NCBI GenBank assembly: GCA_017515325.1
Contig: JAFWGA010000060.1
Span: forward strand, 1-43,255
Source of the DNA: Blautia sp.
Lineage (GTDB): Bacteria; Bacillota; Clostridia; Lachnospirales; Lachnospiraceae
Direction of reading: 5' to 3'
DNA: 43,255 nucleotides
Part shown: piece by piece, positions 1 through 7,692 of the stretch
Numbering within the stretch: the first letter of the stretch is position 1
How the letters are laid out: every line of letters starts with the position of its first letter
Notes under the pieces: model-generated
The model's database searches: none
Seen by the model: the letters and a program-made list of their open reading frames with translations, nothing else
What the model was told of the DNA's origin: nothing
Position numbers and translations under genes: made by a program

Positions 1-351
1 TCCATGCACAAATTCTTTGAATGCCATCGCAATCACGTCGGCATCCCTGCCCTTGAAGAAAACAACATACTTTGGCGGATCCACGGTCTTGTCTTTTTTC
101 ACGGCAAAATCAACATTGTACTTCTTCGCAACACGCTCAAAAGATTTGATGTTATTCTCCGTTATTTCCATGGTATTCGCACCCTGATCCTTGCCCATGA
201 GCTTCTTTACGGAAATCTTTCCATGCCAGTTAGCCTGTTTGTTCTTAAGGTGATTCAAATAGGCAATCATGGCTTTCTTAAGCACATCGGCAGTCAGTTT
301 GGAGGTTCTGATCACAAGGGCAATAGATTTTTGTGTTACTTCTTCCTGCAT
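1..351 (-). CDS. pcfB: PcfB-type (DUF3801) conjugation protein, 3' end cut by window edge
   Basis: The reading frame is open from an ATG at 351 to base 1, giving 117 visible codons. The protein begins MQEEVTQKSIALVIRTSKL and continues with a basic stretch around NHLKNKQANWHGKISVKKL and a late VVFFKGRDADVIAMAFKEF block. This matches my recollection of the PcfB/DUF3801 family, small cytosolic proteins of Gram-positive conjugative elements that work with the VirD4/TraG-like coupling protein. Family members are usually about 150 residues, so the last 30 or so lie outside the window. A strong CAGGAGGA ribosome site (357-364) precedes two tandem ATGs (354 and 351); the second has the better spacing. 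It is the last visible gene of the ICE module, downstream of hairpin A. A coupling-protein gene would be expected just outside the window. Confidence 0.8.
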   Translation of the reverse strand, partial: MQEEVTQKSIALVIRTSKLTADVLKKAMIAYLNHLKNKQANWHGKISVKKLMGKDQGANTMEITENNIKSFERVAKKYNVDFAVKKDKTVDPPKYVVFFKGRDADVIAMAFKEFVHG

Positions 352-372
352 CATTATCCTCCTGTCTTTCGT

Positions 373-480: not shown

Positions 481-485
481 AACGC

Positions 486-542
486 AAAAAGGAGCAGCCT
501 TTACGTCTCCGAAGAGATATAAAAACTGCTCCTATCGCTGTA
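486..542 (-). terminator. hairpin A: intra-operon intrinsic terminator fused to repeated motif copy A
   Basis: Read on the minus strand, the motif TACAGCGATAGGAGCAG (542-526) runs straight into a stem with arms GGAGCAG (532-526) and CTGCTCC (497-491). An inner stem of TCTC/GAGA closes the loop, and TTTTTGCG follows at 490-483. This has the form of a Rho-independent terminator. It lies 19 bases after the stop of the unknown gene at 561-1241 and ahead of pcfB in the same direction, so it would reduce or gate transcription into the conjugation genes. Confidence 0.75.
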
Positions 543-560
543 TCTACTGTTTTGTTGTTC

Positions 561-1241
561 CTACCGTAGTAAATATATCGTATACAGATTTGCAAATACC
601 ATGCCGTTTTCAATCTTAAGATCATCCAGTAAAAGGCACTGAAAAAGAACTGCTCTGATTACATCATCATTCAGCCTGAAAAGCTCACTGTATTTTCCAT
701 AATCCGCCTGCTGTGTGCCTTCATCAGTGGCATGTGGTGTAACTTCATCCCATTCCATATTCTTTCTGTACTCAAGGCAATCCGCATAAAGAGAACGAAT
801 CTGATATTTTCCAAAATAGAAAGAATAGGCTTCTTTCCCATCATAGGTTTTCTTACATTTCTCCAGTTCATCATCTGCTATGGAAAAAGCGCATACATCA
901 GTCTCTATCACGGTTTTTCCATTATAATCCGGCTTAAGCTTTCCGCCGTACCAGTTGATGTGCTGATAAATTTCTTCACGCCCGGTAATGAGCGCAGCTC
1001 TGTGAAAGTCTGTCTTGCCAAGGAATACATCCATATAGACATTGTTGGCAGACAGGGTATCGTTCCAGATGAGCTTTTTATGCTCTCTCACCCGGAGAAG
1101 ATACTGAAGGATATTGATGAGACGCTCTCTGCTATCTATATCCCTGAAGCCCTCTACCGGAACCATAACACTGTCGAGCTTTAACGGCGTCGATCCCTTC
1201 TGAATTTCTTTTTCTACTAGCGATTCTATACTCTTTGCCAT
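561..1241 (-). CDS. ICE protein of unknown function (tentatively DUF6710-like)
   Basis: A 226-residue soluble protein without signal peptide or membrane segments. GGGAGG lies five bases before its ATG (1241). Residues about 39-90 (RERLINILQYLL, then WNDTLSANNVYMDVFLG, then FHRAALITG) resemble from memory the core of DUF6710-type proteins of mobile elements, where a related W...D..NH..V..LP.....H..AAGI pattern occurs. I hold this only as a weak likeness. The middle is rich in aromatic and acidic residues and the C-terminus is short and hydrophobic (VFANLYTIYLLR). The gene is isolated between two intrinsic terminators, one just upstream of its ribosome site and one just after its stop, so its expression is probably gated separately from the rep/par genes. 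Its role in the ICE is unknown. Confidence 0.75.
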   Translation of the reverse strand: MAKSIESLVEKEIQKGSTPLKLDSVMVPVEGFRDIDSRERLINILQYLLRVREHKKLIWNDTLSANNVYMDVFLGKTDFHRAALITGREEIYQHINWYGGKLKPDYNGKTVIETDVCAFSIADDELEKCKKTYDGKEAYSFYFGKYQIRSLYADCLEYRKNMEWDEVTPHATDEGTQQADYGKYSELFRLNDDVIRAVLFQCLLLDDLKIENGMVFANLYTIYLLR

Positions 1242-1262
1242 TCCATCCTCCCTTTTTCAAAT

Positions 1263-1309
1263 AAAAAAGGCAGCTACAAGATCTCTCTCATAACTGCCCT
1301 ATCGCTGTA
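1263..1309 (-). terminator. hairpin B: intra-operon intrinsic terminator fused to motif copy B
   Basis: On the minus strand, TACAGCGATAGGGCAG (1309-1294) leads into a stem with arms GGCAGTTA and TAGCTGCC (one G-T wobble), followed by TTTTTTA (1268-1262). The stop codon of the zinc-ribbon gene (1290-1288) lies inside the loop, so terminating ribosomes would cover the hairpin. Only 22 bases separate the T-run from the next start codon, so the terminator must be read through to reach the downstream ICE genes. Confidence 0.75.
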
Positions 1310-2526
1310 TATTTATCAAATAGATGTGGTCGGTCTGCTTTTACATCAATGCTTATTTCTATCCTCAGTATATGAAGCGCCAGTTCTATGGCATCCCCAA
1401 GTGCTTCATCTGAATCGTTGAGCCTTGTGATGCATACGCAGTCCTCAAACTCCTTATCTCTTTGCCTTAGAATACGGATCAGTTTTATTCTTGCGTTTTT
1501 GCATAGCTGCGTCTTCGCAAACTCCCATCTGTATCCGTCTTTTGTATTATAAAACGGTTTTGAGAATTCAATAACCGCATTCTTTTCCTTTATGTAATTT
1601 GCAAGAGGAATGCCAATCAGCTCTTCCTCATCTATGATAACCTCATATCCTGCCTGCTTTAAGTAATGCATCAAAAGGATATCGGGGAACTCCTTATCAA
1701 ATTCTTTTCTGCATATATGGCAAGGCTCCTTATCAATGGCTCTGTCAGCTATTTTAGCCCGCCATCTGTGACCTCGACTACATCTCCACCAGACTATCCT
1801 CAAAGAATTCCGATGCACCTGTTCCGGGGAAATCATCGTATTACGATCATAGTCCCATTCAGATATCAGTTCGGGATCCGTGGTAGCAAGGTCATTCACA
1901 CCGGCTACAACAACTCTGTCAGAGCATACCGGACAGGATGAACCCTTTACTCTGCTGTCTATGACTGCCCGCCATTCATAACCGCATACACGGCACTTCC
2001 ACCAGACATTTTCCCTGGACTTCGGAAATACTTCATCAGCCCTCTTTGGAGCATTTTTCTCTGACCACTCCTTGGCAAGTTCAGGATAATTACTGGCAAG
2101 ATCATTGAAGCCCTTATAAAGCATGTGTCCTTCACAATACGGACACTGGCTCCCATAGTACCTGTCAGCTATCTTTGCTATCCACTCATGCCCTTGGATG
2201 CATCTCCACCATACGGATTTGTTGGTGCAGGATAAAACCATATCCGGCATAAGCGGATGATTTTTATCTGACCACTCGGATACAAGCTCAGGCTTCATCG
2301 TAGCAAGGTCATTAAAGCCTTTTAAGAGCTGATTGCTGTTGCAATACGGACAATCTGAACCATTAACTCTGTTCTTCACTATTGCCTGCCATTCATGTCC
2401 GCAGGAGCCTCTCCACCACACACGCTTATGTGATCCAATCGTAACATCAGATGGCATAAGGGGAAGATTTCTGTTACTCCATTGTGCGGCAAGCTCCGGA
2501 CATTTCTCAGACACCGTTTCCTTCAT
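1288..2526 (-). CDS. zinc-ribbon repeat protein with degenerate Vsr/DUF559-like C-terminal domain
   Basis: A 412-residue cytosolic protein. Residues 1 to about 275 hold four tandem repeats of roughly 65 residues with the pattern L...PEL..EWS.KN.....V......VWWRC..GHEW.A.I..R..GS.CP.C. This is the treble-clef zinc-ribbon family DUF4379 (PF14311), often linked to nucleic-acid-binding proteins of mobile elements. The fourth unit ends in CHIC. Residues about 278-385 form another domain: KEFPDILLMHYLKQAGYEVIIDEE, then NAVIEFSKPF, then TQLCKNARIKLIRIL. This order resembles Vsr/DUF559-type endonuclease folds (D-x-h then hhhE, then the K...C...IKLIRI strand), but the usual leading Asp reads Asn (LANY). 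A binding-only or altered nuclease is therefore likely (inference). The gene starts three bases after the stop of the small membrane protein gene. Confidence 0.7.
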   Translation of the reverse strand: MKETVSEKCPELAAQWSNRNLPLMPSDVTIGSHKRVWWRGSCGHEWQAIVKNRVNGSDCPYCNSNQLLKGFNDLATMKPELVSEWSDKNHPLMPDMVLSCTNKSVWWRCIQGHEWIAKIADRYYGSQCPYCEGHMLYKGFNDLASNYPELAKEWSEKNAPKRADEVFPKSRENVWWKCRVCGYEWRAVIDSRVKGSSCPVCSDRVVVAGVNDLATTDPELISEWDYDRNTMISPEQVHRNSLRIVWWRCSRGHRWRAKIADRAIDKEPCHICRKEFDKEFPDILLMHYLKQAGYEVIIDEEELIGIPLANYIKEKNAVIEFSKPFYNTKDGYRWEFAKTQLCKNARIKLIRILRQRDKEFEDCVCITRLNDSDEALGDAIELALHILRIEISIDVKADRPHLFDKYTAIGQL

Positions 2527-2529
2527 GCA

Positions 2530-2850
2530 TCACAACCTCCCCGTTATGACCTGTACGGTCGTTGCTACCGCTTTTATCGCAGCCACAATAGCCATAAAAC
2601 CGCCTATGATTCCTCCAACGATACAATCCAGGGCTATCACACCAAGAGAGCCTGCAATGCCGTAATTCCTCGGTATCAGCCACAACCACATCCGTCTGAT
2701 GCCGAATGGAAATCCTACGAGGATCCAGAACAAAAAGAAATCAAATCCTTCAGGTTTATTGCAGACCGGATAGCAGAACAGCACCATAAAGCTGATTGCC
2801 AGTACCGGCAATATAACTTTAAATATCATCGCTGATAATCTCTCACTCAT
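2530..2850 (-). CDS. small polytopic membrane protein of ICE (DUF6050-like)
   Basis: A 106-residue protein with three or four hydrophobic segments: about 8-28 (IFKVILPVLAISFMVLFC), 36-58 (FFLFWILVGFPFGIRRMWLW) and 66-100 (two short helices rich in Gly, Ala, Ile). There is no signal peptide. From memory it fits the DUF6050 family, found between the replication initiator and conjugation genes of Lachnospiraceae ICEs. Its start overlaps the end of the initiator gene by eight bases, which implies translational coupling. Function unknown; a membrane-associated accessory of transfer or exclusion is a guess from position only. Confidence 0.65.
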   Translation of the reverse strand: MSERLSAMIFKVILPVLAISFMVLFCYPVCNKPEGFDFFLFWILVGFPFGIRRMWLWLIPRNYGIAGSLGVIALDCIVGGIIGGFMAIVAAIKAVATTVQVITGRL

Positions 2851-3958
2851 TGGCTGCCCTCCTCATGTTTTCTTCGTCACTTGATAATTGACCGATTTGC
2901 CTTTCTTCAAGCTCCTGTATCTGTGCGTTTCTCTCAGCCTCCCTTTGACGAGCCATCTTCTGAGACATCTCGTACCATTCCTCTGTGTGCATATCGTGAT
3001 GGACAAGCTGTGTGAAGTAATTATCCATCGTTGTCGGCGCATTAAAGAGTGATGCAATCATATACTTCCGCATATTGTGTATCTTGCCGAGATTCTCGGC
3101 TATCATCCCCATAACATACTCAACATGGCTTGCTGTCAGTGATAAGATTCTTTTACGAACAAGCCATTGGGGATACTCTGTTCCTCCAATATTCAGCGAC
3201 TCTCTTTTTCCGGCTATGAGATCAACCATAACTTCAAACAGTTCGTCAAATCGGCTGTTATATTCTGCTCTGTACCTTGCAGACATTTCGTCGTAATAGA
3301 TATTCTCCTTGATCTGTGCAATATCTTCACGTATCACATCCTCATCCCATCCTGAGTTATCCACAGGCGAAGCCGCTTCTGTAGTATTACCAGTAACCTG
3401 GATAAGATTATGATTAGGCTCAATAATATTTTTTAAATAATTATTAGGATCTATTGGTGCGGAATTTCCCACTTCAAGAACAAGGAAATCCCCATCTCTA
3501 GAGATTGGTTTTTCATCATTCAAGACTTCGGTTTTTCCTGTTTCAGAAAAAAGTTTTCCACAATCATCCGTTTCTTCAGAGTACGATTTTTCCGACTTCT
3601 TGCTGACAAAATTCTTCACATAAATGATATCCGGTTTGCCCTGCCCTCTACGTTTTTTCTCGATAAGTCCAAATTCTATGAGATTTTTCAGAGTTGACCT
3701 TGCTTTATCAGCACTGCAATCATGAAGCAGTTTCTGTATGGATTCCAGTGATCTTATGACATAGGTTTTTCCTGCCTCATCAACCCATCCGTTCTGCTTT
3801 GAAAATGCAACCTGCTCATGTAGAAAACCATACAGGATGCATTCTGCTAGACCTAAATCCAAGTAATCAGGATCCTCGAAAAACACTTTCGGTATCTTCA
3901 AGAATCGGAATTGTTCACTTTCTGCACCAGAATAGTAATCGTAATCGAACTTTGGCAT
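2843..3958 (-). CDS. replication initiator protein, RepA_N type with DUF6017-like C-terminus
   Basis: A 371-residue DNA-binding protein. The start at 3958 is chosen because GGAGGTG sits six bases before it and it follows the parB stop by one base; an upstream in-frame ATG (3994) lies inside parB. Residues about 15-115 (FRFLKIPKVFFED..YLDLGLAECILYGFLHEQ, ending LIEFGLIEKKRRGQGKPDIIYV) form the winged-helix RepA_N domain of Firmicutes plasmid and ICE initiators. A low-complexity linker of about 100 residues follows. The C-terminal part (about 215-330, including YPQWLVRKRILSLTASHVEYVMGMI and YMIASLFNAPTTMDNYF) matches what I know as DUF6017. It would allow autonomous rolling or theta replication of the excised element, and sits with parAB as a maintenance module. 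Confidence 0.85.
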   Translation of the reverse strand: MPKFDYDYYSGAESEQFRFLKIPKVFFEDPDYLDLGLAECILYGFLHEQVAFSKQNGWVDEAGKTYVIRSLESIQKLLHDCSADKARSTLKNLIEFGLIEKKRRGQGKPDIIYVKNFVSKKSEKSYSEETDDCGKLFSETGKTEVLNDEKPISRDGDFLVLEVGNSAPIDPNNYLKNIIEPNHNLIQVTGNTTEAASPVDNSGWDEDVIREDIAQIKENIYYDEMSARYRAEYNSRFDELFEVMVDLIAGKRESLNIGGTEYPQWLVRKRILSLTASHVEYVMGMIAENLGKIHNMRKYMIASLFNAPTTMDNYFTQLVHHDMHTEEWYEMSQKMARQREAERNAQIQELEERQIGQLSSDEENMRRAANE

Positions 3959-3959
3959 T

Positions 3960-4880
3960 TTACACACCTCCATGCGTCTTACGGTAATCTGCAAGGAGTC
4001 TTACGATCAGACTCTCAATTTCTGCATCGCTTGCCTCTGCGGGGAAATACTGCATAATCACTTCATGCTTAATGACAACATTTCTTTCCTTAATACTGGC
4101 TACCGCCAACAGAGCGTGGAGTGCTTCCTTTGTGCAGCGTTTTTCCTGTGAGAGCTTCTTTATCTGCTGTGCCTGCGAAAGAGACGGAACAACATTATCC
4201 TCTTCCATGACTTCCATAAGAAGAAACTGCTCACTCGGAGTGATATATGATAACTCAACTGCCGGGTTGAACTTTATCTTCTTGTTATCAACCATTTCCA
4301 ACAGCTGCGGCAGAAGCTCTGTGAGACGGATATACCGCTGAATAGTTCTTGCACTATCACTGTTACCATCGCTGAGTTGATTCACGCTCCATAAATTCTC
4401 GCCAACTTGGCGAGAATTATTTGATTCAGGTCTTCCCGCTTTATTCTGTCTTTTGATTGCATCAAGCTTCATCTTGTAAGCAAACGCCTTCTCACTCGGC
4501 AGAATCTCTTCCCTCTGGAGATTAGCGTCCACCATCGCAATCACAGCTTCATCATCGGTCAGATCCCTTATGATAACAGGAACCGTCTCCAGTCCGACTA
4601 TCTCAGCCGCATGTTTACGCCTGTGACCGGATATCACTTCATAGCCGCCTTCAGGTCTATTACGAACCATGATCGGTACGAGGATACCGTTCTCACGGAC
4701 GCTTTCAACTGTCTGAGCCATCTTTTCATCATCCAAGACCTTAAACGGATGATTCTGAAATGGGAAAAGCTCTCTGATTGGAACCTCAAGCACCTGTCCG
4801 GTCTGCTCCTGATCAATACCAAAAAGAGAATCCAGTCCTTTTAGCTGTACCCTGTCCGGAAGTGGTTTCTTAGCAGCCAT
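3960..4880 (-). CDS. parB: ParB/Spo0J-type partition protein of ICE
   Basis: A 306-residue protein. Residues about 30-115 carry the ParB N-terminal domain with ENGILVPIMVR (63-73) and the CTP-binding SGHRRKHAAE box (84-92). A short linker with SRQVGEN follows, then a helix-turn-helix region about 155-235 (SARTIQRYIRLTELLPQLLEMV). It would bind a centromere-like site and partner with the ParA encoded directly upstream; the two genes overlap by 11 bases. The linker-coding DNA contains a near-perfect 25-bp palindrome (4394-4418), listed separately, which may be the binding site. The length is typical for element-borne ParB proteins. Confidence 0.88.
   Translation of the reverse strand: MAAKKPLPDRVQLKGLDSLFGIDQEQTGQVLEVPIRELFPFQNHPFKVLDDEKMAQTVESVRENGILVPIMVRNRPEGGYEVISGHRRKHAAEIVGLETVPVIIRDLTDDEAVIAMVDANLQREEILPSEKAFAYKMKLDAIKRQNKAGRPESNNSRQVGENLWSVNQLSDGNSDSARTIQRYIRLTELLPQLLEMVDNKKIKFNPAVELSYITPSEQFLLMEVMEEDNVVPSLSQAQQIKKLSQEKRCTKEALHALLAVASIKERNVVIKHEVIMQYFPAEASDAEIESLIVRLLADYRKTHGGV
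4394..4418. promoter_or_regulatory. 25-bp palindrome inside parB, candidate parS/operator
   Basis: The arms are AATTCTCGCCAA (4394-4405) and TTGGCGAGAATT (4407-4418) around a single central C at 4406, so all 12 pairs match. In the parB frame it encodes N-S-R-Q-V-G-E-N, in the linker between the ParB N-terminal domain and the helix-turn-helix. Centromere sites of ParB systems are palindromes of similar size and are often located in or beside parAB. The assignment as parS is inference. Confidence 0.55.
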
Positions 4881-5655
4881 ACGCCAGCACCTCCTTTGTC
4901 AGTTCTTCAAACGCCCTTGCAACCTTGCACTTAGGATCATGCTTATATATGCTGTGTCCGTATGCAGTACACTCCTTTGCCCTTACGGACTCCGGTATCA
5001 TCACATCAAATACCTTTATCTGACTGCCATAGGCTTCACGGAGCTTTTCTATGATATCTTTCTCATGGTTGGTACGGGTATTTACCTTATTGATAACGAT
5101 GCCCTCAACCTCCAACTTACGATTGAGTTTTCTCTTTGTAGAGCCTATTGAAGCAAGTAGCTGTTGAAGACCTGCCATTGAAAGATACGATACCTCCACC
5201 GGAATGATCACAGAATCCGCAGTTGTCAGCACGTTGATTGTCACAAGATTAAGGCTGGGAGAACAGTCGATTAGGATATAATCGTATTCGTCCCTGACGC
5301 TTGATACAAAAGCATCCAGCAGATGCTCTCTGCTGAGAGCGTTCATTATCATGTAGTCCATACCGGCAAGCTTTATATTGCACGGCATGAGATCCACGCC
5401 TTCATCGTTATGTAGAATATACTCCGCAGGATCTATCGGATCCTCATTTATCTCACGCTCTATGAAAGAAGCAAGAGTGTTCTCCAGTTCATCCGCATTA
5501 TCTATACCGAGACTGGATGTTAAATTTCCCTGGGGATCAGCATCAATGACCAATACCTTTTTGTCATTCATGGCAAGACCAACGCTCAAATTGCTTGCCA
5601 ACGCTGTCTTCCCGACACCCCCTTTTTGATTAGCTACTGCGATTACTTTAGCCAT
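4870..5655 (-). CDS. parA: ParA-family partition ATPase of ICE
   Basis: A 261-residue cytosolic ATPase. It carries the deviant Walker A box KGGVGKT (11-17), the A' box VLVIDADPQGNLTSSLG (about 34-50) and the Walker B region YDYILIDCSPSL (about 126-137), as in ParA/Soj/MinD proteins. There is no N-terminal DNA-binding extension, so it is the short (type Ib/Soj-like) form. With ParB it would keep the excised, replicating ICE from being lost. The gene follows the DUF3970-like gene by 22 bases and overlaps parB at its end. Confidence 0.9.
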   Translation of the reverse strand: MAKVIAVANQKGGVGKTALASNLSVGLAMNDKKVLVIDADPQGNLTSSLGIDNADELENTLASFIEREINEDPIDPAEYILHNDEGVDLMPCNIKLAGMDYMIMNALSREHLLDAFVSSVRDEYDYILIDCSPSLNLVTINVLTTADSVIIPVEVSYLSMAGLQQLLASIGSTKRKLNRKLEVEGIVINKVNTRTNHEKDIIEKLREAYGSQIKVFDVMIPESVRAKECTAYGHSIYKHDPKCKVARAFEELTKEVLAYGC

Positions 5656-5677
5656 AACCGTTCCTCCTGTTCTTTTT

Positions 5678-5875
5678 TTATCTGTTGCCCTGCCTTTTGC
5701 GGGCTTCTATTTTTGTTCTTTTGTCCACATCCGAAAACACTCGGAAGATCTTGTTGGTTCCCTTATTCTTTAAGGGCTTGGATTGGCTTGTGACCTGGTA
5801 CACCTTGTCTTTTTCCATGTGTTCCAGATAATCTTTCAGCTCGTAGGTCGGTCCCGAAACTCTTACTTTTAACAT
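5678..5875 (-). CDS. small DUF3970-like protein, first clear gene of the ICE module
   Basis: A 65-residue basic protein starting MLKVRVSGPTYELKDYLEHM. It has a conserved-looking V-R-V-S-G-P opening, a central VTSQSKPLKNK and an FRVFSDVD strand, which matches the small DUF3970 family known from Gram-positive mobile elements as I remember it. Function unknown. A GGAGG lies 11 bases before its ATG. An upstream short frame (5763-5978) overlaps its first 113 bases in another phase. Stop to parA start is 22 bases, so it is co-transcribed with parAB. Confidence 0.7.
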   Translation of the reverse strand: MLKVRVSGPTYELKDYLEHMEKDKVYQVTSQSKPLKNKGTNKIFRVFSDVDKRTKIEARKRQGNR

Positions 5876-5978
5876 ACTCGTTCATTCCTCCTCTAATTGG
5901 GTATAGTCTCTGTCTTAGTTCGGGAACGGTTATCATCATAATCGCTCTGCCTGCACCTATCGCTGTACTTATTTTCAT
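5763..5978 (-). CDS. possible leader ORF containing motif copy C (only its first ~34 codons look plausible)
   Basis: An ATG at 5978 has the strongest ribosome site of the module (AAGGAGG, seven bases upstream). It opens MKISTAIGAGRAIMMITVPE. The first codons encode the repeated motif TACAGCGATAGGTGCAG (5967-5951). The second half is simply the out-of-phase reading of the DUF3970-like gene and looks non-native. This may be a translated leader that couples translation to the next gene. It lies directly downstream of hairpin C. Confidence 0.35.
   Translation of the reverse strand: MKISTAIGAGRAIMMITVPELRQRLYPIRGGMNEYVKSKSFGTDLRAERLSGTHGKRQGVPGHKPIQALKE
5951..5967 (-). repeat. repeated ICE motif TACAGCGATAGG(N)GCAG, copy C
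   Basis: Reads TACAGCGATAGGTGCAG on the minus strand. The 12-base core is identical to copies A (526-542) and B (1294-1309), followed by GCAG with zero or one intervening base. Unlike A and B, I see no terminator stem built on this copy. It lies near the start of the module rather than between genes. Confidence 0.7.
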
Positions 5979-6013
5979 GGCATCTCCTCCTTGTAAATGT
6001 ATTTTTGACCATA

Positions 6014-6059
6014 ACAAAAAGGACACTCTCAAAAGATTTCTCTTTTAGAAAGTGTCCTT
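6014..6059 (-). terminator. hairpin C: strong intrinsic terminator between lysS/att and the ICE genes
   Basis: Minus-strand arms AAGGACACT (6059-6051) and AGTGTCCTT (6027-6019) enclose a second stem, AAAAGA-GAAA-TCTTTT, and are followed by TTTTTGTTATGG. It is the most stable-looking terminator in the ICE part. It would stop read-through from lysS into the element, or act as a leader attenuator if the ICE promoter lies upstream of it in 6060-6150. Confidence 0.8.
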
Positions 6060-6201
6060 AATTTTGCAAAATATTTGATTGACTACCCAAGGAGTAAATG
6101 CATTATCATGTACTGTTCTGCATCTACAATTGGAACTATTGTGGCACTTTTGTGGTACCTAAGTTCCTTTTACCACTTGAAACCCTTGATTTTACTGGGG
6201 T
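6060..6201. other. ICE-chromosome junction with integrase arm-like repeats (probable att region)
   Basis: No gene fits here. The stretch lies directly after the lysS stop and before the first ICE hairpin. It contains inverted pairs GGAACT (6132-6137)/AGTTCC (6162-6167) and GTGGTA (6152-6157)/TACCAC (6171-6176), plus the close repeats GTGGCAC and GTGGTAC. This is the style of arm-type binding sites of tyrosine recombinases. A perfect 12-bp palindrome ATTTTGCAAAAT (6061-6072) lies beside hairpin C and may be an operator. The crossover itself is probably within the last codons of lysS. The second att copy is not in the window, so the core cannot be fixed. Confidence 0.55.
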
Positions 6202-7692
6202 TTACTTGCTTGTTGACTTCAAGGTCGGGAACAGGAGCACGTCCCTGATGGCCTGGCTGTCCGTCAGCAGCATGCACATACGGTCAATCCCGTACCCGAT
6301 GCCGCCCGTCGGCGGCATCCCGATCTCCAATGCGTTGAGGAAGTCCTCGTCTGTGGTATTGGCCTCCTCATCGCCCTGAGCCAGAGCTTCCTCCTGCGCC
6401 TTAAAGCGTTCCCTCTGGTCGATGGGATCGTTCAGCTCTGAATAGGCATTGGCCATCTCCCAGCCGTTCATAAAGAATTCAAACCGCTCCACGTACTCCG
6501 GATCATCCGGCTTTTTCTTGGTCAGGGGAGAAATCTCGATGGGATGATCCATGACAAAGGTAGGCTGGATCAGAGTCTCCTCCACAAACTGTTCGAAGAA
6601 GAGATTCAGAATATCCCCCTTCTTATGGCGTTCCTCATATTCCACATGGTGTTCCTTGGCTGCTGCCCTTGCTTCTTCCAGGGTATGGATGTCATGGAAA
6701 TCAACGCCCGTGCGTACCTTCACAGCATCTACCATTGTGATACGTGCAAAGGGCTTGCCCAGATCCATCTCTACGCCATTGTAGACGATGGTGGTGGTGC
6801 CCAGCACCTCCTGAGCCACATAACGATAAAGATTTTCTGTCAGATCCATCATACCATGATAGTCCGTGTATGCCTGATAGAGCTCCATCAGAGTAAACTC
6901 CGGATTGTGGCGGGTGTCAAGACCCTCGTTCCGGAAAACACGGCCGATTTCATAAACCCTCTCCAGGCCTCCCACAATCAGGCGCTTCAGATACAGCTCC
7001 AGGGATATCCTGAGCTTGAGATCCTCATCCAAAGCATTGAAATGGGTCTCGAAGGGTCTGGCGGCAGCGCCGCCGGCATTCGCCACCAGCATAGGGGTTT
7101 CCACTTCCATAAAGCCCTGACTGTCCAGATAGCGGCGGATCGCGCTGATGATCTTCGACCGCTTGATAAAGGTGTCCTTCGCCTCGGGATTCATGATCAG
7201 ATCCACATACCTTTGACGGTAGCGCAGATCACGATTGGTCATGCCATGGTATTTTTCCGGGAGAACCTGGAGACTTTTGGAAAGAAGAGTCAGCTCAGAA
7301 GCATGGACAGAGATTTCTCCCGTCTTTGTCCGAAAAACCTCCCCCTTCACGCCAATGATATCACCGACATCCAGCTTCTTGAACTCCTTATAGGGTTCTT
7401 CGCCCAGAGAATCCCTTGCCACGTAGACCTGGATGGTTCCCTGAAGATCCTGTACATGGCAGAAGGAGGCTTTGCCCATCACACGCTTCGACATCATTCT
7501 GCCGGCTATGGTCGCCTGCTGCCCTTCCAGTTCCTCAAACTGATCTTTAATCTCCTGGCTGTGACGGGAAACCTCATATTTTACCAGTCGAAAGGGATCC
7601 TTTCCCTCTGCCTGCAGCTGGGCGAGCTTCTCCCTGCGCACCGCTCTGAGATGATTGATATCCTGCTCCTGCTCCATTCTGACTTCAGCCAC
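6202..7692 (-). CDS. lysS: lysyl-tRNA synthetase, class II
   Basis: A 496-residue cytosolic enzyme charging tRNA-Lys. The N-terminal OB-fold anticodon-binding domain (about 55-160) has [21 protein letters not shown]. The class II catalytic core carries motif 2 FRNEG (253-257) with RHNPEFT (261-267), and motif 3 GIGYGIDRM near the C-terminus, so it is complete and functional. The start is a GTG at 7692 with AAGGAGGG six bases upstream; the in-frame ATG five codons later lacks such a site. The protein ends [11 protein letters not shown]. The last few residues look replaced or trimmed relative to usual tails, as expected if an ICE inserted at the 3' end and restored a stop. A promoter is visible at 7722-7750. 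Confidence 0.96.

Follow-up and report, generated by a model that had tools for sequence, protein, structure and literature searches.

A short sequence motif shared by the leader and the intra-operon terminators of a Lachnospiraceae conjugation module, with a DUF3970 protein as its candidate reader

The window, a 43,255-nucleotide stretch of a Blautia contig, carries at one end a conjugation module encoded on the minus strand. In the direction of the operon, it opens with a Shine-Dalgarno-like GGAGGAG (5984..5990), recognised from the sequence, and a leader ORF beginning MKISTAIGAG (5763..5978), for which searches of Pfam and NCBIfam gave no match at E 0.01. A gene for a 65-amino-acid DUF3970 protein (5678..5875), our candidate for binding the motif described below, overlaps the leader ORF in another frame; the protein scores 24.6 bits against PF13113, above Pfam's curated cut-off of 21.1. 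There follow genes for a ParA-type ATPase (4870..5655; PF13614, 1.3e-56), a ParB-type protein (3960..4880; PF02195, 1.4e-20), a RepA_N/DUF6017 protein assigned by profile match (2843..3994) and a DUF6050 protein (2530..2850; PF19517, 2.7e-14), an ORF with DUF4379, a treble-clef zinc finger (1288..2526; PF14311, 1.8e-61), a 226-amino-acid ORF without a Pfam match (561..1241) and a DUF3801 gene (1..354; PF12687, 1.1e-30), which is truncated by the contig end, leaving the far end of the element outside the window, and which we take to be pcfB. At the element end adjoining a tRNA-synthetase gene lies an insulator-like intrinsic terminator on the same strand, T1 (6019..6059; stem AAGGACAC...GTGTCCTT, -22.2 kcal/mol, followed by a T-run).

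The 12-mer TACAGCGATAGG occurs exactly at 542-531, 1309-1298 and 5967-5956, always on the minus strand, and continues as AGCAG, GCAG and TGCAG, giving motif copies A (526..542), B (1294..1309) and C (5951..5967). Copy A is intergenic, lying between the stop of the 226-amino-acid ORF (561) and pcfB (354) in a gap with no listed minus-strand ORF of at least 80 amino acids. Copy B covers the final codons of the DUF4379 ORF, while in copy C, the leader copy, ACAGCG begins 12 nt after the first base of the ATG. These three are the only exact copies in the 3.3-Mb genome, where a further 14 places match with one mismatch; the total of 17 matches compares with 21 for a backward-read control. Within 6.2 kb of the minus strand, TACAGCGATAGG is the only 12-mer found three times, and any 12-mer reached three copies in 3 of 2000 simulations under an order-2 Markov model. 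The first-pass annotation had held that a three-fold identity of 12 bases is not expected by chance and that copy C sits near the start of the module; both observations are borne out, copy C falling in a short leader ORF just past its start codon. It had further placed all copies on the coding strand of three proteins, of which the strand is right and the third protein, at copy A, is not.

At copies A and B, the AGG(N)GCAG end of the motif forms the 5' arm of a predicted hairpin with a T-tract, as had been proposed at first reading. Terminator A (485..533, minus strand) has a stem at 533-490 of -26.0 kcal/mol, and terminator B (1261..1300, minus strand) a stem at 1300-1267 of -20.2 kcal/mol, which in the sequence extends across the DUF4379 stop codon; the T-tracts lie close to the 3' ends predicted earlier (486 and 1263). 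The first 8-11 nt of the motif are unpaired at terminators, and this unpaired foot is ACAGCGNN. In the relative represented by L181 and L182, the 29 kb following the leader contain no hairpin in the operon's direction below -18 kcal/mol other than terminators B and A. Rfam models of riboswitches, leaders and attenuators gave no match in the window at the gathering score.

Among relatives the motif takes the form ACAGCGWNARG(N)GCA. Of 397 genomes of the family, 56 have a match to a leader copy that follows a start codon, against 4 of 397 for the reversed control. Of 64 leader-pattern matches, nine of them judged to be chance matches, 44 have a terminator 39-166 nt upstream. Cultured carriers of such an element include Lacrimispora amygdalina and Acetitomaculum ruminis. 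Six relatives retain the exact motif with DUF3970 proteins 34-47% identical to that of the window, and the flanking bases vary. The first-pass annotation had staked its proposal on homologous ICEs sharing the motif, and it is indeed conserved in related elements. Terminator copies were present in 13 of the 27 leader-bearing loci examined, and position 7 (A or T) agreed between the leader and its terminators in all 14 elements compared, window included; both are hand counts, and L332, L338 and L340, with too little downstream sequence available, are not among the 27. The earlier idea that the motif marks terminators holds for intra-operon terminators, together with the operon start, but 14 of the 27 leader loci have no motif terminators. 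A genome-level table (26/3/6/165) was likewise counted by hand from the leader-pattern and DUF3970 scans, both assumed to be drawn from G000-G199. For the terminators, 26 of 28 rows were kept, leaving out L098 (rearranged leader) and L154 (a chance match), and 19 were aligned. In this alignment 94.2% of cells are paired and 9 of 15 base pairs show double changes, a number reached by 2 of 500 shuffles; the covariation score was reached by none of the 500.

The motif is constrained at the nucleotide level. We scanned the 30 DUF3970-anchored loci for Thr-Ala-X-X-Ala, in any codons, following a start codon. The scan gave 26 distinct leader starts, all of which read ACA GCG xxA xxx GCA, with no constraint on base 3 of codon 4; across the ORFs of the window, ACA, GCG and GCA supply 38, 20 and 38% of the codons in their respective families. 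This codon-open scan is the unforced evidence for leaders, as are positions 7-12 for terminators. In the relatives' leader base counts and the terminator set, the search patterns fixed ACAGCG (with A9 and GCA in leaders, and GCAG in terminators), and these bases are invariant there because the patterns impose them. Terminator copies carry A9 and G11 in 19 of 19 cases, positions 7, 8, 10 and 12 vary and base 12 is sometimes absent, a pattern that fits a factor competing against the stem. GCA is kept in leaders in which no hairpin was observed; the portion that pairs at terminators is therefore probably read in the unpaired state.

The motif is most likely read by a DUF3970-family protein of about 60 amino acids. 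In a sample of 30 of 35 DUF3970 places chosen blind to the motif, 29 loci carried the leader motif; the sole exception, L319, has lost the NKGT loop. Two relatives scoring 17.8 and 15.6 bits, under the PF13113 cut-off, were joined to the family through alignment A2. DUF6075 loci, sampled equally blind (30 of 52 places plus the plasmid records L345-L347, all three without the motif), carried the motif in 17 of 17 cases with DUF3970 against 3 of 16 without (Fisher 9.8e-7), the three being broken elements. Among pcfB loci, DUF3970 is the gene with the strongest motif association, present in 11 of 12 loci with the motif (the twelfth lies on a short contig) against 1 of 32 others, in a comparison that includes L181, L184, L185 and L187, picked by motif, and L222-L226, picked for terminator variants. 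L237, a pcfB locus with DUF3970 that was counted as motif-free, has a leader variant. Class-wide, 5 of 391 genomes gave a DUF3970 match, two of them outside the family: L342 carries the motif, and L344, a weak match, does not. Queried with the window protein, plasmid and phage collections gave no DUF3970 match at E 1e-3, and comparison of the DUF3970 fold with Alba and other named RNA-binding folds gave no informative match.

Other candidate readers were also considered. The 226-amino-acid ORF occurs in 8 of the 12 motif loci and none of the 32 others and DUF6050 in 9 and 1, both weaker associations than that of DUF3970, while ParA and ParB are frequent in motif-free loci too. A motif intrinsic to DUF6075 was rejected because, the three broken elements aside, the motif is missing from the 16 DUF6075 loci that have no DUF3970. 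The first-pass annotation had proposed a factor or an antisense RNA and did not name DUF3970.

We propose that one recognition site, ACAGCGWNARG(N)GCA, would have two uses within one conjugation module. In the first, the site would act within the first ORF, following its start codon; in the second, it would supply the unpaired foot and first base pairs of the intra-operon terminators before pcfB. We infer that DUF3970 binds it, the candidate target being single-stranded nascent RNA, ACAGCGAUAGGNGCAG. Bound at the leader, DUF3970 would mask the region where translation of the leader ORF starts, repressing that ORF, and hence would exert feedback on its own gene, which overlaps the leader ORF in the window. 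Bound at B and A, it would keep the 5' arms of the terminators open, and with the stems open, transcription would continue into the transfer genes. The analysis shows the site itself, its conservation as nucleotides, terminator structures that are predicted and covary, and the linkage to DUF3970; the model as a whole, from binding through leader repression to antitermination at B and A, seems to us evenly poised between right and wrong. That a factor on the motif would open the stems and switch the module on had been suggested before, and a conserved, nucleotide-constrained motif at the operon start and terminators is in keeping with that part, leaving aside the antisense RNA.

DUF3970 could instead work mainly by repressing translation at the leader and, at terminators, stabilise or merely tolerate the hairpin, giving feedback termination. 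Leader copies are the commoner of the two, motif terminators being absent from 14 of the 27 leader loci, and the unpaired foot could be readable with the stem closed; yet leaders conserve GCA whatever the codon freedom, which implies recognition of bases that would be buried in the terminator stem, and we regard this reading as unlikely. Less probable still is another reader. It might be a NusG paralogue of the RfaH/LoaP type recognising an ops-like element, or some host protein; alternatively, DUF3970 or a different protein might act on the DNA. A short motif so close to the beginning of the operon does resemble the logic of ops, and the 226-amino-acid ORF and DUF6050 also track the motif; against this, the counted copies follow the direction of the operon and are in register with either a start codon or a stem, and DUF3970 is the best motif-associated gene. 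An ops DNA element is named in the abstract of PMC5449661.

A trans-acting antisense RNA pairing with all copies, the second option of the first-pass annotation, would account for both the sequence-level conservation and the mutual exclusion with the stem, but we think it very improbable. It is unsupported because no complement was found elsewhere: not as an exact opposite-strand copy in its own genome, not for the 16-17-base pattern in the three-copy genomes G203 and G080, and in the window a G-U-tolerant complement occurs only at the three copies themselves, where an antisense transcript of a copy may carry it. Equally hard to sustain is a leader copy that works as a peptide (TA[IL]xA), with terminator copies incidental. 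An in-frame copy does stand behind ATG in 29 of the 30 DUF3970-anchored loci, and TAIG codons without terminators, once named as grounds for doubt, do occur in the 14 loci above; however, all 26 starts use ACA, GCG and GCA, on which ground conservation at the peptide level was rejected, copy A is intergenic, some terminators cannot encode TAIG, having a stop in that frame (ACA GCG TAA in L224), and L300 carries an additional copy out of frame with the ATG. Chance, or passive inheritance among close elements, is scarcely credible: pattern scans of large collections did give matches in many unrelated genomes, one scan mixing true and chance matches among the matches listed, but the genome-wide count, the Markov control and exact motifs within varying flanks, beside divergent DUF3970 proteins, contradict it.

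More tentatively, and with rather less than even confidence, we suggest that DUF3970 founds a family of sequence-specific RNA-binding regulators of about 60 amino acids in Lachnospiraceae conjugative elements, using one 15-nt site for start-codon feedback and for a local, non-processive antitermination switch before the transfer genes. Since the motif recurs beside DUF3970, its probable reader, a role for DUF3970 is now testable, as is one for a second uncharacterised family, the DUF6075 N-terminal extension. The open-licence literature searched yielded no description of the motif, and the names DUF3970 and DUF6075 were absent from it.

In the BglG/SacY/LicT systems, the protein-binding RNA site (RAT) overlaps the 5' arm of a terminator, and binding excludes termination; the same overlap is found here. 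The RAT folds into a structured hairpin, and its readers are larger, PTS-regulated proteins, whereas the window site looks single-stranded, its candidate reader has about 60 amino acids and a second copy lies at a translation start. Ribosomal proteins, TRAP and CsrA bind RNA on their own leaders in autoregulation, and the proposed binding over a translation start, with operon feedback, would be similar; unlike in those systems, the identical site is reused in conjugation-module terminators.

The broader problem is how ICE operons of gut Firmicutes stay silent when integrated and are fully transcribed at transfer. Tn916 (PMC11658703) is likewise an ICE of Gram-positive bacteria: an insulator terminator lies close to one of its ends, others lie inside it, and antitermination is required before its transfer genes. 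Its canT is a long, structured cis-acting RNA (a 452-nt sequence was tested, and 341 nt were also active), located downstream of the promoter active after excision, that acts processively on unrelated terminators, unlike the 15-nt motif here, which lies at the leader and within terminators and is linked to a small protein. The bipartite conAn antitermination system of pLS20 (PMC8955417) also pairs a protein, ConAn1, with an RNA, conAn2, where a conjugation operon containing internal terminators begins; loaded there a single time, it acts processively and overcomes more than 20 of them, and the abstract and introduction of that paper describe no terminator-borne shared motif of the kind seen in the window. 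Tn916 and pLS20 represent two answers, and a third, if true, would be a local switch whose reader is a tiny protein.

The first-pass annotation had placed three copies of TACAGCGATAGG in one module, and each was confirmed as an exact minus-strand match, within 542-526 (copy A), 1309-1294 (copy B) and 5967-5951 (copy C). The 3.3-Mb genome, assembled in 68 contigs with the window at the beginning of one of them, contains no other exact copy, and any 12-mer occurred three times in the same 6.2 kb in 3 of 2,000 simulations using a trinucleotide-based Markov model. The terminators at A and B were also borne out, with T-tract hairpins downstream of both copies. The proposed location in three unrelated proteins was not right for copy A, which is intergenic; copy B overlaps the end and stop codon of a DUF4379 ORF, and copy C follows a leader ORF's start codon.

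On the minus strand, the gene order is a class II tRNA synthetase gene (PF00152; presumably lysS), the terminator T1, the leader ORF with copy C, DUF3970, ParA, ParB, RepA_N/DUF6017, DUF6050, DUF4379 ending in terminator B, a 226-aa ORF, terminator A and pcfB (DUF3801), the last truncated by the contig end. We take this module to be the leading end of an ICE that adjoins the synthetase gene at its 3' end. T1, a strong terminator between that gene and the leader ORF, would insulate the element from synthetase-gene transcription. The sequence points to the 3' end of the gene as the integration site. The element adjoins it at window positions 6019-6202, and a similar gene end occupies the corresponding place in three related loci (L181, L184 and L187). 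Another pcfB gene of this genome (G000:C44:2176-2550), on a contig without an exact motif copy, probably marks a second element of another type. Rfam families gave no matches in the window.

Exact three-copy arrays were found, among the matches listed, in Lacrimispora amygdalina, L. defluvii and two Lachnospiraceae MAGs (L059, L082, L061 and L088), and also in genomes G203 and G080; apart from the final gap in L061, their spacings are close to the window's. Among 397 family genomes, own genome counted, 9 had the exact pattern, and none had it when read backwards as a control. Pattern searches also returned many matches in unrelated genomes, which we take as chance. Diverged terminator copies such as AACAGCGTCAGGGCAG were found upstream of pcfB (30 pcfB genes) and are matched by leader copies such as ACAGCGTTAAGAGCA (20-kb stretches). 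The leader pattern of Shine-Dalgarno sequence, ATG and motif was present in 56/397 family genomes against 4/397 for the reversed control; of these 56 genomes, at least G061 seems to be a chance match. Two further copies were seen outside these arrangements: one at L300:520 (plus strand), about 540 nt ahead of the leader copy, preceded by a Shine-Dalgarno-like sequence and by an ATG in another frame, and an exact one at L189:9629 (minus strand), after a T-rich stretch and ahead of a Shine-Dalgarno-like sequence, not behind a start codon.

We searched 30 DUF3970-anchored loci for start codons followed by Thr-Ala-X-X-Ala, allowing any codons. In all 26 distinct starts, codons 1, 2 and 5 were ACA, GCG and GCA, and codon 3 ended in A (TTA in 23, ATA in 2, AAA in 1); the third base of codon 4 was free. 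The same codon pattern fitted 20 of 21 distinct starts from 30 DUF6075-anchored loci, the other being an unrelated alanine-rich start. This pattern places the constraint at the nucleotide level. Flanking bases mostly carried less than 1 bit, except the start-codon region and single positions. Among 19 aligned terminators, gathered by ACAGCG and GCAG and hence fixed at those bases by construction, A at position 9 and G at position 11, both left free by the search, were invariant, and base 12 was variable or absent. The stem past the motif varies with compensation: across 15 pairs, 94.2% of cells were paired, compared with 42.6-54.9% when slid; nine pairs showed double changes, a number reached in 2/500 shuffles, and no shuffle of 500 reached the covariation score. 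In the predicted folds, the aligned stretch begins with 8-11 unpaired bases. Position 7 (A or T) was the same in leader and terminators in 14/14 elements including the window, several being close relatives. We conclude that the motif is a real, conserved regulatory site.

Clustering ORFs from 44 pcfB-anchored or motif-anchored loci identified DUF3970 as the best-associated gene (11/12 motif loci versus 1/32 others, p 1.8e-8), followed by the 226-aa ORF (8/12 versus 0/32) and DUF6050 (9/12 versus 1/32). The sole motif locus without DUF3970, L222, is a short contig, and L237, which has DUF3970 and was counted among the non-motif loci, carries a leader variant. In a motif-blind sample of 30 DUF3970 loci, 29 had a leader motif. 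The exception, L319 (G078), encodes a DUF3970 with a degenerate or missing NKGT loop and has no leader motif beside the gene, making it a candidate natural test of that loop as the binding part. Counted by hand from two scans, both assumed to cover G000-G199, 26 genomes had DUF3970 and leader, 3 DUF3970 alone, 6 leader alone and 165 neither; of the three with DUF3970 alone, G104 and G190 have leader variants, and the six leader-only cases comprise two at a contig edge, three broken elements and one chance match. The N-terminal codons of the neighbouring gene DUF6075 frequently include the motif, which was present in 17/17 DUF6075 loci with DUF3970 and 3/16 without, those three being the broken elements counted above. 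In L335, L340, L332 and L341, a leader motif is present and DUF6075 is truncated or has unrelated genes after it, apparently an insertion-sequence protein in the case of L332; no DUF3970 was found in these four. Fusions of the motif to tiny leader peptides also occur, as does one to ParA (L318), and so the motif is tied to position rather than to one protein. AlphaFold gave DUF3970 a beta-alpha-beta-beta core (pLDDT 75 and 84), for which fold searches returned only generic matches; the fold speaks neither for nor against RNA binding. On sequence associations, DUF3970 is a strong candidate partner of the motif.

How the site acts we infer as follows. In the simplest reading, a factor, with DUF3970 as the candidate, would recognize the motif as single-stranded RNA, binding and hairpin formation being mutually exclusive, because the bases common to leader and terminators include stem-paired ones that are kept in leaders where no stem was seen. 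Bound at the leader, the factor would repress; bound at terminators B and A, which lie between the replication/partition genes and pcfB, it would permit readthrough. Over the 29 kb that follow the leader in one relative (L181+L182), no co-directional hairpin other than B and A falls below -18 kcal/mol; this stretch has three weaker hairpins (-12.4 to -17.7), and the next strong ones beyond it reach -18.9, -24.7 and -25.8. T1 lies upstream of the motif, so passing it would need another mechanism. A single neat story is weakened by the split among 27 leader-bearing loci, 13 with motif terminators and 14 without. Among the latter 14, two are broken and seven have, a few kb past the leader, a terminator whose arm is of the GCAGC or ACAGC type and that lacks the ACAGCG foot (operon-strand coordinates L231:7239, L228:4754, L326:5055, L328:4874, L336:4879, L322:4805 and L339:4842). 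Thus, the leader role may be older, and terminator use a feature of some lineages.

Elements of this group repeatedly contain a palindrome near CTTnTGGACAnnnTGTCCAnAAG, which in some cases directly follows a motif terminator. L333 has seven copies (820, 877, 5077, 7519, 7995, 9387 and 10396), L226 three, and L224, L255 and L185 two each; the core GGACAnnnTGTCC was absent from the window. The palindrome may serve as parS for the ParB of the element, or as an operator.

We found no description of the motif or of DUF3970 in the open-licence literature searched, and the site apparently has not been described before. RAT/LicT switches have a binding site that overlaps a terminator arm, as this motif does, and to our knowledge none of them places one shared site both at a translation start and at terminators in association with a protein of about 60 aa. 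Such a site is likewise absent from the accounts of Tn916 canT and pLS20 conAn, as far as the consulted portions of these sources extend; there, the same problem is solved by processive antitermination, in Tn916 by canT (PMC11658703) and in pLS20 by conAn (PMC8955417).
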